Shown here: positions 1,894-11,421 of the stretch, in pieces | How the letters are laid out: each line of letters opens with the position of its first letter | How positions within the stretch are numbered: the stretch's first letter is position 1 | Assembly: GCA_018221285.1 (NCBI GenBank) | Contig: JAAOYJ010000002.1 | Location: 1-42,249 of the forward strand | Origin: Candidatus Pacearchaeota archaeon | GTDB taxonomy: Archaea > Nanobdellota > Nanobdellia > Pacearchaeales > GW2011-AR1 | Direction: 5' to 3' | DNA length: 42,249 nt | Position numbers and translations under genes: made by a program | Notes under the pieces: model-generated | The model's database searches: none | What the model was told of the DNA's origin: nothing | Seen by the model: the letters and a program-made list of their open reading frames with translations, nothing else

Positions 1894-2649
1894 ATGAGCG
1901 AAGCAACAATTACATTGCCGAAGTGGGATTATGAGATTGAAAGGAAAATGCGTGTTTTTGGAACTACTTCTGAAGAAATATCAAAGAAGAAACATAATAT
2001 TTTTATTGGAGTTAGTATAAGCAATAAGAAGCTGGATGAGAAGATGGCTTATGATTATCTTCGGTGGTCTGTTAAGAATACAAAGGAAAAGGTTGCAGTG
2101 GTGATTGCTGACGAATTGGATATTGTTAATTATGAAATCTTTAGTAGTTATAGTTCAGGTAAGGCACGAAAAAGGGCTGAGAGAGAAGGAGAAAAGTTTA
2201 AGGGAATCTTCGAAAGAGCTATTAAGAAGCTGTCCGAAAAAGACCAAGATAAAGTTATTATTTACAAATGGAGTGATGTTAAGAGAAGTAAGAATTATGA
2301 TGGGTTAAGAGAGTTTGTAACAAAGTCTTATGAAGAATATCCAGAGTTTAAGTCAGGAGTTTTATTTTTTGTTAAGAAGTATATTCGTAAAAGAGGAAAA
2401 TTAAAGATACTTGAAAACAAAGAAAAGATAGATCGGCTCGCAACATATCTCTTTGGAGAATTGCCAACTCTTTTGCAAGGAATTTATCTTGATGGAATTC
2501 ACTATGACATTTGCATTTACCCAACTTATTTTGCTTCTGGAATGAGCCAATTCGTAACAGACCTTCTAGCAGGAGAATTAGATATAAGTAAACCTCTGGC
2601 ATCTAAACTAAAAGGAAAAGCAGCCCTTGTTGAGGTTTGGTTGGATTAG
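1894..2649 (+). CDS. tRNA-dependent cyclodipeptide synthase
   Basis: 251 residues, normal for the family. CDPSs hijack two aminoacyl-tRNAs to make a diketopiperazine. The nucleophile motif G-V-S-x-x-N is present at 39-44 (FIGVSISN, catalytic Ser41). A central basic helix (SSGKARKRAEREGEKFK, about 87-103) matches the tRNA-binding region. The catalytic Y-L-x-x-E-x-P motif is present at 185-191 (Tyr185, Glu189). Tyr209-Pro210 follow with the same spacing as AlbC Tyr178 to Tyr202, so the protein looks closer to the XYP subfamily, although Asn is kept at the AlbC-40 position. Homologues are rare in archaea. No cyclodipeptide oxidase or P450 is next to it; the downstream partner is an unknown basic protein. 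The amino acids used cannot be read from sequence. Confidence 0.88.
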   Translation: MSEATITLPKWDYEIERKMRVFGTTSEEISKKKHNIFIGVSISNKKLDEKMAYDYLRWSVKNTKEKVAVVIADELDIVNYEIFSSYSSGKARKRAEREGEKFKGIFERAIKKLSEKDQDKVIIYKWSDVKRSKNYDGLREFVTKSYEEYPEFKSGVLFFVKKYIRKRGKLKILENKEKIDRLATYLFGELPTLLQGIYLDGIHYDICIYPTYFASGMSQFVTDLLAGELDISKPLASKLKGKAALVEVWLD

Positions 2650-4092: not shown

Positions 4093-6204
4093 TTAATTTT
4101 TATTCACAAAATCTTCTATCTCACTCAATAAAGTAAAATTGGTTTTTTTATCTAAAAAACTCATTAATAAATTTCTTGAGTAAAACAAAAAAGTATAGTC
4201 TACTTTCCATCCCGTAGTGTCTTCAATGCTATAATGATTAAGTACTTGCATAAGATTTTTCTCTACAAATTCTTTTTTCTTCAAGACCCTTTCAACGTAG
4301 CCCTTCTCTTCTTTGAGAAATTTATCTATTATAATATTGGCTATTTCTCTCGCCCCAAATTTTCTGCTAATTTCCTTAGCTTCCCAAATTATAATCTTCT
4401 TATTTGCGAGATGTAATGAGAGAGCATCAATCTCTCCAGGAGATTCCTCTTTAATATCTGCAAAGCATTTATCATTCTTTCCTCCTTTAAACTCTGCTAT
4501 ATTCCCTTCGTAATGAGGGGTAATTTTTTTTAATTGATTTAGTAAATCCTTCTCTAGCCTCTTAGATACTTCAGAGCGTTTATCTGAAAGAGAATTACGC
4601 AAGTCTCTTGGAAGAAGTTCCATGTTCGAATAAACCCCCCTGCCCTCAATTATAGAATTAAGAAAGTTTTCTGAGGCAGCCTTTATCATTCCTGGGCCAA
4701 AGATAAGTTTTCCACCAACACTTGCTAGAGGTTTCACCATAAGCCTATTATCTTGCATAGTTCCCTCAGAGGGGAGCATTCTTGGAATATCTTCCTGCAA
4801 GGAGATGGTAGAAAAATCAATGATTTTTGAAATTTTATTCCTTTTTAGAAGATTCCCCCCTTCTTGTGTGTCTAGAAAATTAGATATGAATGTTATTATC
4901 TCTTCTTTTTCCGATTCACAAACTCCTCCAATCTCTTCGATAGCCGGATAATTTGTTAATATATTCAAGACAAGCAAATAGTCTTCACAACGAAAACCAA
5001 AATATTTTTCCAGAAGATCATTAATCTTCCGGAATCCACCTTCCCCAGCCTCCCAAATTTTATCAAATCCTAAATAAACACTTTCAATAGAATTATCCTT
5101 TATCTCCAAATTCTCTCTCTCAAACTTATCTGTTTTTTCTACAACCTTAGAAAGATGTTTTTCTATAGGGTTATCTTCAATAATTATCTTAAAAAAAACT
5201 TTTTCTTCAAGATCTATTTCTAATTTTATTTTAATAAAATCATATAAGGGTTTTCTTAAATATTCAAGAATTGAGGAGATAGTCATAATTTTCATTACAA
5301 GAGAGGAGAGTTTTTGCCATTTTTCTGTGTCTATTTCTTCATTACCTCTAGATCCTTGAGCAATCAACTTTTCGAGTAAAAATCTAGAGGACGTACCATA
5401 CATACTAGTTTTCATTTCCTCGGAAATCAGCCTTTCAGAATATTTCTTTTCGTTAGAGGTTCCCTTGGATAATCTGTAACTATTGAATATATTTTCTTTA
5501 ATTCCTAATGTTTTTTCGATTTCGTTATAAATATATTTGGAAAGACTTCCTGGGTCTAATAATGATAGTTCCTCGGAAATAATTGAATTCAATTTTGAAT
5601 AAAGGCTCATAAAAATTGGCCAGGCCTTATCTGCACTATAAACTCCAGATGTTATTTTTTTCTCTTCTAATTCCTTCAATAAGCGGAGCTCAGTATCTAG
5701 ATCATCTAGATTATCTGGGAAGTTCAAATTTCCCAAATTTTTGGGATTTTGTGTTGATGCATATTGTCCCAGTTGAAAATGCTTTCTAAGATCTATGCTC
5801 AAAAGAGTTTCTTCTATTTTCTTAAACTTTTCTGGGCCAAATATATTTCCTAAGAGTCTCGCTTCAAAAAAACAAGCTAAAGAAGTAGGATCAGTAACAA
5901 ATTCCTCAAAAAATATATCTTTATCAAAAAAGAGGAAGATCTCACTTCCATTAGTCAAGACTTCAATAGACTTGCCATCGTGCTCCTTCCTTAGACCTTC
6001 TGGAAGATCCTCAAAGGGAGCTATGTTTATTACCTTCTCATGGTTTCCTGTTGAAGGGACTAGGTCTTTTTTCAAGAGTTCCTCGAAATAAAATTGTACG
6101 ATCCCCGAAATCATTGAACTGATCAGATAAGATTTTTCATCCATCCCTCTGAGTCTTTTACAAATATAAAGATTTAATTTATCAAAATACATGAAGTCCT
6201 CCAA
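4093..6204 (-). CDS. 3' part of a frameshifted large gene; PD-(D/E)XK nuclease-like C-terminus
   Basis: 703 codons from a TTG, with no good start of its own. Near the C-terminus GEIDALSLHLANKKIIIWEAK matches the PD-(D/E)XK core: G-E-I-D on one strand and E-x-K (W-E-A-K) on the next. Such a core cuts DNA or RNA with Mg2+. The helical N-terminal two thirds are not recognised. Removing one G from the G8 run at 6239-6246 joins this frame to the upstream ORF with no stop, giving 1209 residues. I therefore treat it as the second half of one gene. Isolated and large, it may be a defence nuclease, but no helicase or methylase lies nearby. Confidence 0.65.
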   Translation of the reverse strand: MEDFMYFDKLNLYICKRLRGMDEKSYLISSMISGIVQFYFEELLKKDLVPSTGNHEKVINIAPFEDLPEGLRKEHDGKSIEVLTNGSEIFLFFDKDIFFEEFVTDPTSLACFFEARLLGNIFGPEKFKKIEETLLSIDLRKHFQLGQYASTQNPKNLGNLNFPDNLDDLDTELRLLKELEEKKITSGVYSADKAWPIFMSLYSKLNSIISEELSLLDPGSLSKYIYNEIEKTLGIKENIFNSYRLSKGTSNEKKYSERLISEEMKTSMYGTSSRFLLEKLIAQGSRGNEEIDTEKWQKLSSLVMKIMTISSILEYLRKPLYDFIKIKLEIDLEEKVFFKIIIEDNPIEKHLSKVVEKTDKFERENLEIKDNSIESVYLGFDKIWEAGEGGFRKINDLLEKYFGFRCEDYLLVLNILTNYPAIEEIGGVCESEKEEIITFISNFLDTQEGGNLLKRNKISKIIDFSTISLQEDIPRMLPSEGTMQDNRLMVKPLASVGGKLIFGPGMIKAASENFLNSIIEGRGVYSNMELLPRDLRNSLSDKRSEVSKRLEKDLLNQLKKITPHYEGNIAEFKGGKNDKCFADIKEESPGEIDALSLHLANKKIIIWEAKEISRKFGAREIANIIIDKFLKEEKGYVERVLKKKEFVEKNLMQVLNHYSIEDTTGWKVDYTFLFYSRNLLMSFLDKKTNFTLLSEIEDFVNKN

Positions 6205-6214
6205 TAAGATCCGA

Positions 6215-7723
6215 TTATATCCATGGAGACAATACTCTCCCCCCCCGAATAATTTTAAAACTTCCTCTTTGAGGATATGCTTTTGGTTGATTATGCCACA
6301 TTGGTCGTTTTTTCTGTCTCTTTTCCATTGTTGTACTATGCATATGGGGATCTAGTAAGATTATTGCAGATTTAAATAATGCAAATAAATAGTGAGAATA
6401 CTTAGTCGAATCATAAAAATCCAAGAAGGTAGTATATGGGGAAGGGATAAGCTCCATTTCTCTAAATTTATTTATTACCTTGGCCAAATAGATTAGATTA
6501 GATTTGCTGTCAAAAAGATCCTCAAATAGATAATTTAGGGAGTAGTAATCTAAGATCAGTGTTTCTTTATTCATAGCACTTATTTTTGAGCCATTTAGTC
6601 CATCATAAAGAATTATTTGAAATGGTTCAGTTTTTGGATCTAGCTTGATTTTCTCTTCATTAAGATTAAGATTTATTTCACTTTTATTAAAAAGATCTGA
6701 TACTTCTTTAGATTTTTTCTGTATCTTTTTTATCTCTCCTAATATTTTTTTACTTTCAAGGTGCTCTTTAACAACATTAAACATAAAAAATTTATTTTCA
6801 TAGTGAAATCCTTTATCAAAGACATGATCACTTCCCTCTATATGGAAATTGTCGATAATTGCTTCTTCAGGCATCATTTCTGTTAGGGCTCTAACAATCT
6901 CCCACTCAGATTGCTTGTCTAATTCTTCTTCCAATTTTTTTGTAGTATTTTTCCTTATATCTTCAAGCAATTTTCTGTAGAAGAGATGAATGAGGTTAGG
7001 GATGTTGATAAAAAGCCCTTTGTACAGGGGATAGTCAGAGAACAAGGAATCCGCCTCTGCAGAGTCTTTTGGCTCTTCAAACTTTTCTTTACTTTTGAAC
7101 AATTGTTCAGAGGGAGAATACTCAGAACATACGCTAAAAATCTTATCTATAGATTCTTTTGAAGGAATCACCCAAAGAACTTCTTTCCCAGGATCTTTAT
7201 CTGGAAGATTGGAAGAAATTTTATCTTCAAAATTCAGAATCTTTACTAATTCTTCTTTTATTGAGTACCCTATTTTTCCCCTTAAGAAACTCTCTAGGGG
7301 AAGTATCCTTCTAATAAGAATATCCAATATTTCTAAAGGATTTTCAAGAGATCCTGGAAGTAGTTGATATGATTTACCTTCAAAATTAAACTCAAATTCC
7401 TTCCAAGGAGCCCAATCTTCTACGAAATCCCAATTCAAATCATTAGTTATTTTTAGAATTTTTTTCATCTTTTCTTCATCAAGCTTTTCATTCTTAAACT
7501 TCTCTTTAGGCAAAGATAAGGCAATCTGTTGAATAGATAAAAAACGATAAGAGATAATTTGATTTTTTGGTATGGCAAGGCTTGCAGTAACCCATCTAAC
7601 TATTTCCTCTTTTGAGTAGTTTAACAAGCAATCCTTCAATTTATCTTTGAAAATATTAAAATTTTTATTCATGATGTGAGACATTTCACCTATTTCTTTT
7701 TTTAAATCAAATGATATGTCCAT
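6215..7723 (-). CDS. 5' part of the same frameshifted gene; unknown helical protein
   Basis: 502 codons from ATG 7723. A TATA-like TTTATTAAG lies about 25 nt upstream (7743-7752), so this is the true 5' end. The protein is rich in Lys/Glu helices and has no recognised domain. After RGSFKII the frame enters the G8 run and ends eight codons later (RVLSPWI stop). With seven G the reading would instead continue GEYCLHGYNRILLEDFMYF into the 703-codon frame. It could be an assembly error, a real mutation, or a phase-variable or programmed slip. Confidence 0.65.
   Translation of the reverse strand: MDISFDLKKEIGEMSHIMNKNFNIFKDKLKDCLLNYSKEEIVRWVTASLAIPKNQIISYRFLSIQQIALSLPKEKFKNEKLDEEKMKKILKITNDLNWDFVEDWAPWKEFEFNFEGKSYQLLPGSLENPLEILDILIRRILPLESFLRGKIGYSIKEELVKILNFEDKISSNLPDKDPGKEVLWVIPSKESIDKIFSVCSEYSPSEQLFKSKEKFEEPKDSAEADSLFSDYPLYKGLFINIPNLIHLFYRKLLEDIRKNTTKKLEEELDKQSEWEIVRALTEMMPEEAIIDNFHIEGSDHVFDKGFHYENKFFMFNVVKEHLESKKILGEIKKIQKKSKEVSDLFNKSEINLNLNEEKIKLDPKTEPFQIILYDGLNGSKISAMNKETLILDYYSLNYLFEDLFDSKSNLIYLAKVINKFREMELIPSPYTTFLDFYDSTKYSHYLFALFKSAIILLDPHMHSTTMEKRQKKRPMWHNQPKAYPQRGSFKIIRGGRVLSPWI
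6239..6246 (-). repeat. G8 homopolymer at the frame junction
   Basis: Eight C on the plus strand, that is eight G in the coding strand, exactly where the 502-codon and 703-codon frames meet. The span 4093-7723 is 3631 nt; minus one base it is 3630, divisible by three, as needed for a single 1209-residue protein. Mononucleotide G tracts of this length are classic slippage sites. Confidence 0.85.
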
Positions 7724-8177: not shown

Positions 8178-8711
8178 TTATTCTTCATCAACAAATCTCT
8201 TAAGAATCTTATTAAGGTTTATTGTAGAATCACAAGCTTTTCTTAAATTTGAGGAAGAACTTCTGCTAAAATATGCGTTTTCTACTTTTTTCTTATATCG
8301 CTCTCTAACTATTTTTATTGAATCAACAAAATCCTCGTCGCCACTAACAACAATCGCAGTATCATATAAATCATCAACTGCGCCCATCAACAAATTATTT
8401 GATAATTTTACATCATCTCCTTTAACAATATATACAAAATCTCCGCCAGATTTTATTTTCTTTAAATTGCATAATATTACTTTAAACTTAGGGATTTCTT
8501 TTAACATATTAAGAAATCTATGATGTGCCCAATATTTTTTAGCATCAGTTTTTATATCTAAAGGAGCACCATAATAGTAAACATTAACTAATTCTCTATC
8601 TCCCACAAGTTCATTAGCTAATTTATTGAATTTCACTTTCTTGCCTTTCTTTGCTGTACTATAGTAGAAATTACTTCCATCAATAAATATTGCAACTCTT
8701 TCTTTATGCAT
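8178..8711 (-). CDS. NYN-domain (LabA/DUF88-like) protein
   Basis: 177 residues. FIDGSNFYY at the N-terminus, KGDDVKLSNNLLMGAV in the middle and AIVVSGDEDFV are the hallmark acidic motifs of the PIN-related NYN fold, with Asp11, the GDD pair and the SGDxDF loop forming the metal site. NYN proteins are predicted or shown ribonucleases. It stands alone with its own TATA-like TTTTATAAAA about 26 nt upstream (8727-8742), so its RNA target is unknown. A stress or defence role is possible. Confidence 0.85.
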   Translation of the reverse strand: MHKERVAIFIDGSNFYYSTAKKGKKVKFNKLANELVGDRELVNVYYYGAPLDIKTDAKKYWAHHRFLNMLKEIPKFKVILCNLKKIKSGGDFVYIVKGDDVKLSNNLLMGAVDDLYDTAIVVSGDEDFVDSIKIVRERYKKKVENAYFSRSSSSNLRKACDSTINLNKILKRFVDEE

Positions 8712-10276: not shown

Positions 10277-10305
10277 ATGGTACATTATACCATAATATTA
10301 TGGTA
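10277..10305 (+). promoter_or_regulatory. Operator overlapping the HEPN/MNT start codon
   Basis: A perfect 18-bp palindrome TACCATAATATTATGGTA (10288-10305) covers the ATG at 10300. It shares its TACCAT with an upstream ATGGTA-N5-TACCAT repeat (10277-10293). The TATA-like TTAAAT lies just upstream at 10271-10276. Binding here would block leaderless initiation, fitting autorepression by the winged-helix domain of the first protein. Confidence 0.7.
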
Positions 10306-10893
10306 AAGTATACACTAAAGGAAAAGATATTGAAATTCTTAATCGAAAATAAGGAAAAACCCCACTCAATTAGGGAGATTTCTCTAAAGTTAAAAGCAGA
10401 TTATAAAAATACCTCCCAAGCACTTAACAACCTTAATCTTAAAACATATTCTAAGAAGAAACAAGGGAATTCTTATTTGATTGAGTTTAACCCTGAGAAT
10501 AATATTGAAACGCTTTCTATCGAAGAAAAAAGAACAAAAGAGTTTTTATCTAAAAATCCAAAAATGAAGTTAATTGTTAAGGATATTAATGAAATTAATT
10601 ACCCGTTTATGATTGTCCTTATTTTTGGGTCTTTTGCAAATGAGAAAAACACTCAAACATCAGATATGGATCTCTGCATAATCTCCGATAATAAAACAAA
10701 AACAAATAAATTAATTGAAATGTTAAATCTGTTCAACCTAAAAATAGAAATCCAAGAGTTCACGACTGGAGAATTTGTTTCAATGATAGAAAAAAAACAA
10801 AACAATTTGGGTCACGAAATAACTAAAAATAATGTTATTCTTTATGGAATAGAGAATTATTATAATCTTATATCAAATAACTCTCAAAATTAA
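10300..10893 (+). CDS. Winged-helix + MNT nucleotidyltransferase-domain antitoxin
   Basis: 197 residues. An N-terminal winged helix (about 5-60: KILKFLIENKEKPHSIREIS) is followed by a minimal nucleotidyltransferase core with the classic G-S-x10-D-x-D motif (Gly110, Ser111, Asp122, Asp124). In HEPN/MNT modules the MNT protein is the antitoxin and silences the HEPN RNase, in known cases by AMPylating it. The HTH domain and the palindrome over its own start codon point to autoregulation. The HEPN gene follows after 9 nt. Confidence 0.85.
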   Translation: MVKYTLKEKILKFLIENKEKPHSIREISLKLKADYKNTSQALNNLNLKTYSKKKQGNSYLIEFNPENNIETLSIEEKRTKEFLSKNPKMKLIVKDINEINYPFMIVLIFGSFANEKNTQTSDMDLCIISDNKTKTNKLIEMLNLFNLKIEIQEFTTGEFVSMIEKKQNNLGHEITKNNVILYGIENYYNLISNNSQN

Positions 10894-10902
10894 AAATTAC
10901 CT

Positions 10903-11421
10903 ATGGATGAAAAAAGAATAAAACAAGCAGAGAATAATTTTATAAATTATCTAAGAGAGGGTAAGATTAAGAAAGTTAATTTTAATGAATTAATCTATAA
11001 CACTTATCTAAGAAATGCAAAAGAAAGTTTGAACTCTGCTAATCAGTTATTTCAGAATAAAACTTCTTCGTTATGGGTTGTTGTGACGAGTTATTATTCT
11101 ATGTTTTATATGGCTTGCGCATATCTTTACAAATTAGGTTATAAGCCAGGACACGAAATTGTTCATCAGGTTGTGAATGAGTCATTGATTGTGCAGGGCA
11201 GACATAAAATTAAGAATCACCTTTTAGAAAATTATTCCGAGGAGAAACAAAAAGCATTGATTGTAGTAGATAATTATTTGAACAATTATGAGAGGGAAAA
11301 AGCTAAGAGGGCAAATTTCCAATATCAAACAACAGAAGAGGTAAAAGAAAATAAAGCAAAGACATCTCTAAATCGAGCGAAAGAATTTTTTGAGTTAATG
11401 AGAGAAGTTTTATTAAAATAA
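10903..11421 (+). CDS. HEPN-domain toxin
   Basis: 172 residues, all helical: YNTYLRNAKESLNSANQLF, then WVVVTSYYSMFYMACAYLY, the typical second HEPN helix, then a C-terminal helix. A candidate RNase motif R-x5-H is Arg100-His106 in QGRHKIKNH. It is encoded directly after the MNT gene in the usual order. Expected to be an RNA-cutting toxin held in check by its partner. The active-site assignment is by eye. Confidence 0.8.
   Translation: MDEKRIKQAENNFINYLREGKIKKVNFNELIYNTYLRNAKESLNSANQLFQNKTSSLWVVVTSYYSMFYMACAYLYKLGYKPGHEIVHQVVNESLIVQGRHKIKNHLLENYSEEKQKALIVVDNYLNNYEREKAKRANFQYQTTEEVKENKAKTSLNRAKEFFELMREVLLK

Follow-up and report, generated by a model that had tools for sequence, protein, structure and literature searches.

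In the 42,249-nt window analysed here, one whole contig of an 863-kb assembly (43 contigs, 82% complete) from an uncultured archaeon, two long reading frames on the reverse strand, ORF1 and ORF2, are read with guarded preference as orphan genes lying side by side in a single operon, a preference that is a judgement from ratios and likelihoods and not a computed posterior. The original prediction had described a single nuclease-like gene of 1209 residues, split at a run of eight G and phase-variable, programmed, mutated or mis-sequenced. Its observation of the sequence is accurate, and a switch of reading frame at the G8 tract is unsupported; the choice may rather lie between two ordinary neighbouring genes and a single gene disrupted by the gain or loss of one base.

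Reading frames and start signal of ORF2

The features of the locus, with coordinates in the window, are the following.

6215..7723 (-): ORF1, 502 aa, with ATG start and TAA stop, without known family (from frame reading and family searches)
4093..6192 (-): ORF2 from its own ATG, 699 aa, with a C-terminal PD-(D/E)XK-like motif, without known family
6193..6351 (-): upstream extension of the ORF2 frame, open, without ATG, starting right after the TAG at 6352-6354
6217..6351 (-): stretch of 45 codons in which the ORF1 and ORF2 frames are both open; a frame switch is possible anywhere inside
6239..6246 (-): G8 tract on the coding strand (C8 on the forward strand)
6198..6202 (-): GGAGG, Shine-Dalgarno-like, 5 nt before the ATG at 6192, complementing CCTCC of the genome's 16S 3' end
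4375..4437 (-): GEIDALSLHLANKKIIIWEAK, PD-(D/E)XK-like motifs (from a pattern search of the genome's ORFs)

The ORF2 frame is open from 6351 to 4093, amounting to an open frame of 752 codons, and skipping one base joins it to the ORF1 frame, resulting in 1209 uninterrupted residues. Here, coordinates, lengths and tract had all been given correctly, and the 502-codon ORF indeed runs through G8, followed by seven sense codons and then TAA. In the overlap from 6351 to 6217, the ORF2 frame reads IPICIVQQWKRDRKNDQCGIINQKHILKEEVLKLFGGGEYC... and the ORF1 frame DPHMHSTTMEKRQKKRPMWHNQPKAYPQRGSFKIIRGG...; since both are open over 45 codons, a switch, if there is any, need not be at G8. Compared with each other, ORF1 and ORF2 show no similarity.

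The second frame had been described as a 703-codon ORF lacking a proper start, which is wrong, as an ATG is found at 6192, 22 nt after the ORF1 stop, with GGAGG (6202-6198) five bases upstream. The 16S of this genome ends with ...GGATCACCTCCT and has the anti-Shine-Dalgarno CCTCC. Hence, start and ribosome-binding site of the second ORF lie close to the stop of the first, as looked for in a two-cistron arrangement. With two cistrons, translation of ORF1 would end at 6215 and the ribosome would then start ORF2 at the ATG at 6192 via GGAGG 6202-6198, presumably on a common transcript, while the openness of the ORF2 frame further upstream and the G8 tract would be coincidence.

Search for relatives and known families

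Homologues of ORF1 and ORF2 were found neither in viral contigs, genome contigs, plasmids and phages nor in 140 relatives, 200 genomes of the order, 371 of the phylum and 378 of the class; the samples of class, order and phylum overlap, so that fewer distinct archaeal genomes were searched than the 1,461 counted. The comparison with related genomes that had been proposed as a check thus yielded no homologue among those searched. The searches gave a handful of weak hits at 13-19 bits (E 1e-4 to 1e-2), all of which were rejected. Most of them contain stops; one (L003) is antisense to a CDC48-like ATPase frame, and three others (L009, L010 and L011), though free of stops, are short. Families and structures likewise gave no match for ORF1 or ORF2 in Pfam, NCBIfam, PADLOC, PHROGs or PDB sequences. 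The earlier statement that no known family is recognised in the first 1000 residues therefore holds and is true of the C-terminus as well, for which the sole pointer to PD-(D/E)XK is a motif. Within the collections searched, the gene or gene pair is an orphan, and because no homologue was found, one gene and two are indistinguishable by this route. Without relatives or reads, a locus of this kind defies classification in gene surveys.

Two cistrons, a broken gene or a frame switch

Among the touching same-strand pairs of this genome (233), 16.3% combine an ATG and a Shine-Dalgarno-like 5-mer close to the stop of the upstream frame; among single-base indels simulated in its genes, 1.5% do. Shine-Dalgarno use is weak in general, at 9% of first ATGs and 2.5% of internal ATGs. 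The length of the overlap points the other way, an open-frame overlap of 45 codons being rare among touching or overlapping pairs (2 of 233, ORF1/ORF2 included) and commoner among the simulated indels (8%). The other long overlaps to which a name could be given come after ordinary genes, namely 53 codons after an S7 that is complete to the profile end, 43 after a RecB-like helicase/nuclease and 32 where S19 follows L2; in the second of the two pairs and in the next-longest case, the gene in front is complete and recognisable. Among ten overlapping pairs tested, most of which match no family, none has both halves matching one Pfam family; broken genes are therefore not evidently common here. 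Whole-sequence likelihoods place two genes ahead by +1.6 nats, which is hardly any difference. As the ratios from start signal and overlap nearly cancel and the likelihoods lie within 1.6 nats, two genes are only modestly preferred.

Tests on the overlap (35 codons) with codon usage, composition and classifiers conflict and place no switch, the region being too short to settle the frame. Codon usage and composition fit the ORF1 frame, with a two-frame codon statistic of +8.1 (a value no higher than this is obtained for 28% of the windows truly in the ORF1-type frame, and one at least this high for 0.8% of those in the alternative). The statistic using amino acids only (+5.5) and a linear classifier (P of the ORF2 frame 0.025) also lean toward ORF1. 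On the other hand, the hydrophobic pattern favours the ORF2 frame (P 0.91), and a boosted classifier leans toward neither (0.51). When the likelihood of a codon model is spread over sites with a flat prior, the G8 region and beyond receive only 0.20 of the switch probability. A switch at the C4 run near 6346 was considered, as the upstream peptide in the ORF2 frame (..QKHILKEEVLKLFGGGEYCLHGYNRILLEDF..) is protein-like in look, and was rejected, as the codon model gives 2% to the overlap's initial 12 codons.

The main competitor of the two-cistron reading, to which we assign a substantial though smaller probability, is a single gene, about 1209 codons long, that is disrupted by a single-base indel; the indel would be a genuine mutation, making the gene a pseudogene, or else an error of sequencing or assembly. 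The homopolymer G8 would be the likeliest site a priori, any position in 6351-6217 being possible. In line with such a break, one skipped base is sufficient for joining the frames, the overlap length fits simulated indels (8%) better than typical gene pairs (about 1%), and the upstream extension of ORF2 has a protein-like hydrophobic pattern. In addition, the authors of the GeneTack survey, who name errors, indels and gene overlaps as causes, expected orphan singleton frame transitions to consist to 67% of sequencing errors and indels and to 33% of gene overlaps (PMC3711429), so that two thirds of such cases would fall to errors or indels. The present locus resembles the orphan 'fs-genes' and overlapping pairs of that survey in having two frames, one switch and no homologue, but differs in the Shine-Dalgarno sequence and ATG of ORF2 just past the ORF1 stop (PMC3711429). 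Several results speak against a broken gene: this start signal at a distance of 22 nt would have to be a coincidence of 1.5%, codons and amino acids in the overlap favour ORF1's own frame, the share of the G8 region and beyond in the codon model is low (0.20, flat prior), and the frames around the other G8 tracts of the assembly are intact. Of the four readings originally offered, mutated and mis-sequenced thus stand as candidates, whereas phase-variable and programmed are unsupported.

Phase variation, in which the length of G8 would vary in the population and turn the full-length protein on and off, is considered very improbable. A G/C homopolymer of eight does lie near the frame change, and toxin/defence-type genes are its neighbours (ParE, HEPN with nucleotidyltransferase, NYN). 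However, G/C runs of eight occur four times genome-wide, with none longer, when 4.4 runs of at least eight are expected from a first-order Markov model, and the other three G8 runs are inside uninterrupted frames of 268, 1646 and 247 codons. Long G tracts are hence neither over-represented nor typical of reading-frame breaks in this genome. Like the G/C-tract phase-variable genes known from Campylobacter, the locus has G8 on the coding strand adjoining the frame change; unlike them, it comes without tract enrichment, second allele or relatives with other tract lengths, only one allele having been seen. Moreover, the tract is located mid-gene, while proposed switching tracts (poly-A, poly-T) cluster near 5' ends (PMC2831843). 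More generally, caution is advised: where the following frame possesses a start of its own, a homopolymer close to the frame change counts for little as evidence.

Still less credible is a programmed +1 ribosomal frameshift or transcriptional slippage producing the 1209-residue protein. Strings such as GGG-G and CCC-C are shift-prone in principle, and both are present in the overlap. Frameshifting also has an archaeal precedent in the alpha-L-fucosidase of Saccharolobus solfataricus, but in the -1 direction (PMC8211752), and a -1 shift at the A-run of the overlap would land in the wrong frame. RNA structure around the proposed shift site did not exceed that of shuffled sequences (z +1.1, -1.0 and +0.5), leaving the programmed variant unsupported. 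Even taken together, phase variation and programmed frameshifting are given little weight, and the complete proposal of an orphan nuclease-like defence protein of 1209 residues, with its full-length form switched by G8 slippage or +1 frameshifting, is given very little. If the frames nevertheless formed one gene with a switching tract, a large nuclease-like protein would be subject to phase variation, a rare case among archaea.

C-terminal motif and gene neighbourhood

ORF2, the second gene in the favoured two-cistron reading, probably ends in a predicted PD-(D/E)XK nuclease-like domain. Its C-terminal GEIDALSLHLANKKIIIWEAK fits D...(E/D)xK catalytic motifs, and the pattern is absent from the genome's 568 other ORFs. 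As judged by eye, ORF2 resembles the PD-(D/E)XK superfamily in the succession GEID-x(n)-IIIWEAK and its hydrophobic strand, in front of which a helix bears Glu, but differs in having no profile or PDB sequence match. The nuclease assignment made earlier is accordingly plausible from the motif, which is present, and is not backed by a profile. Single-sequence AlphaFold2 models of each ORF were unusable (pLDDT 36.0 for ORF1 and 32.9 for ORF2). Because genes of toxin/defence type are nearby, encoding ParE, HEPN with a Polbeta nucleotidyltransferase and an NYN domain protein, an accessory function or one in defence is plausible, and ORF1/ORF2 may well represent an accessory, possibly defence-type, module.

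Several neighbouring genes deserve mention in their own right. A ParE-like toxin is encoded at the contig start (233-484, +), and at 10300-11421 (+) a Polbeta nucleotidyltransferase gene is followed by a HEPN gene, corresponding to a toxin-antitoxin pair of the HEPN/MNT type. The NYN-domain protein (8178-8711, -) has three more paralogues in the genome at 42-48% identity; in the relative G001 (contig 11, 7965-8493, L085), the NYN match is divided into two pieces lying side by side, hinting at a broken frame in the copy of that genome or in its assembly. A cyclodipeptide synthase-like gene (PF16715, E 2.7e-20) at 1894-2649 (+) had no match in 19 relatives searched. A fragment in G000 (contig 35, 3227-3307, L087) shares 67% identity with the final 27 residues of this cyclodipeptide synthase and carries a TAG inside.
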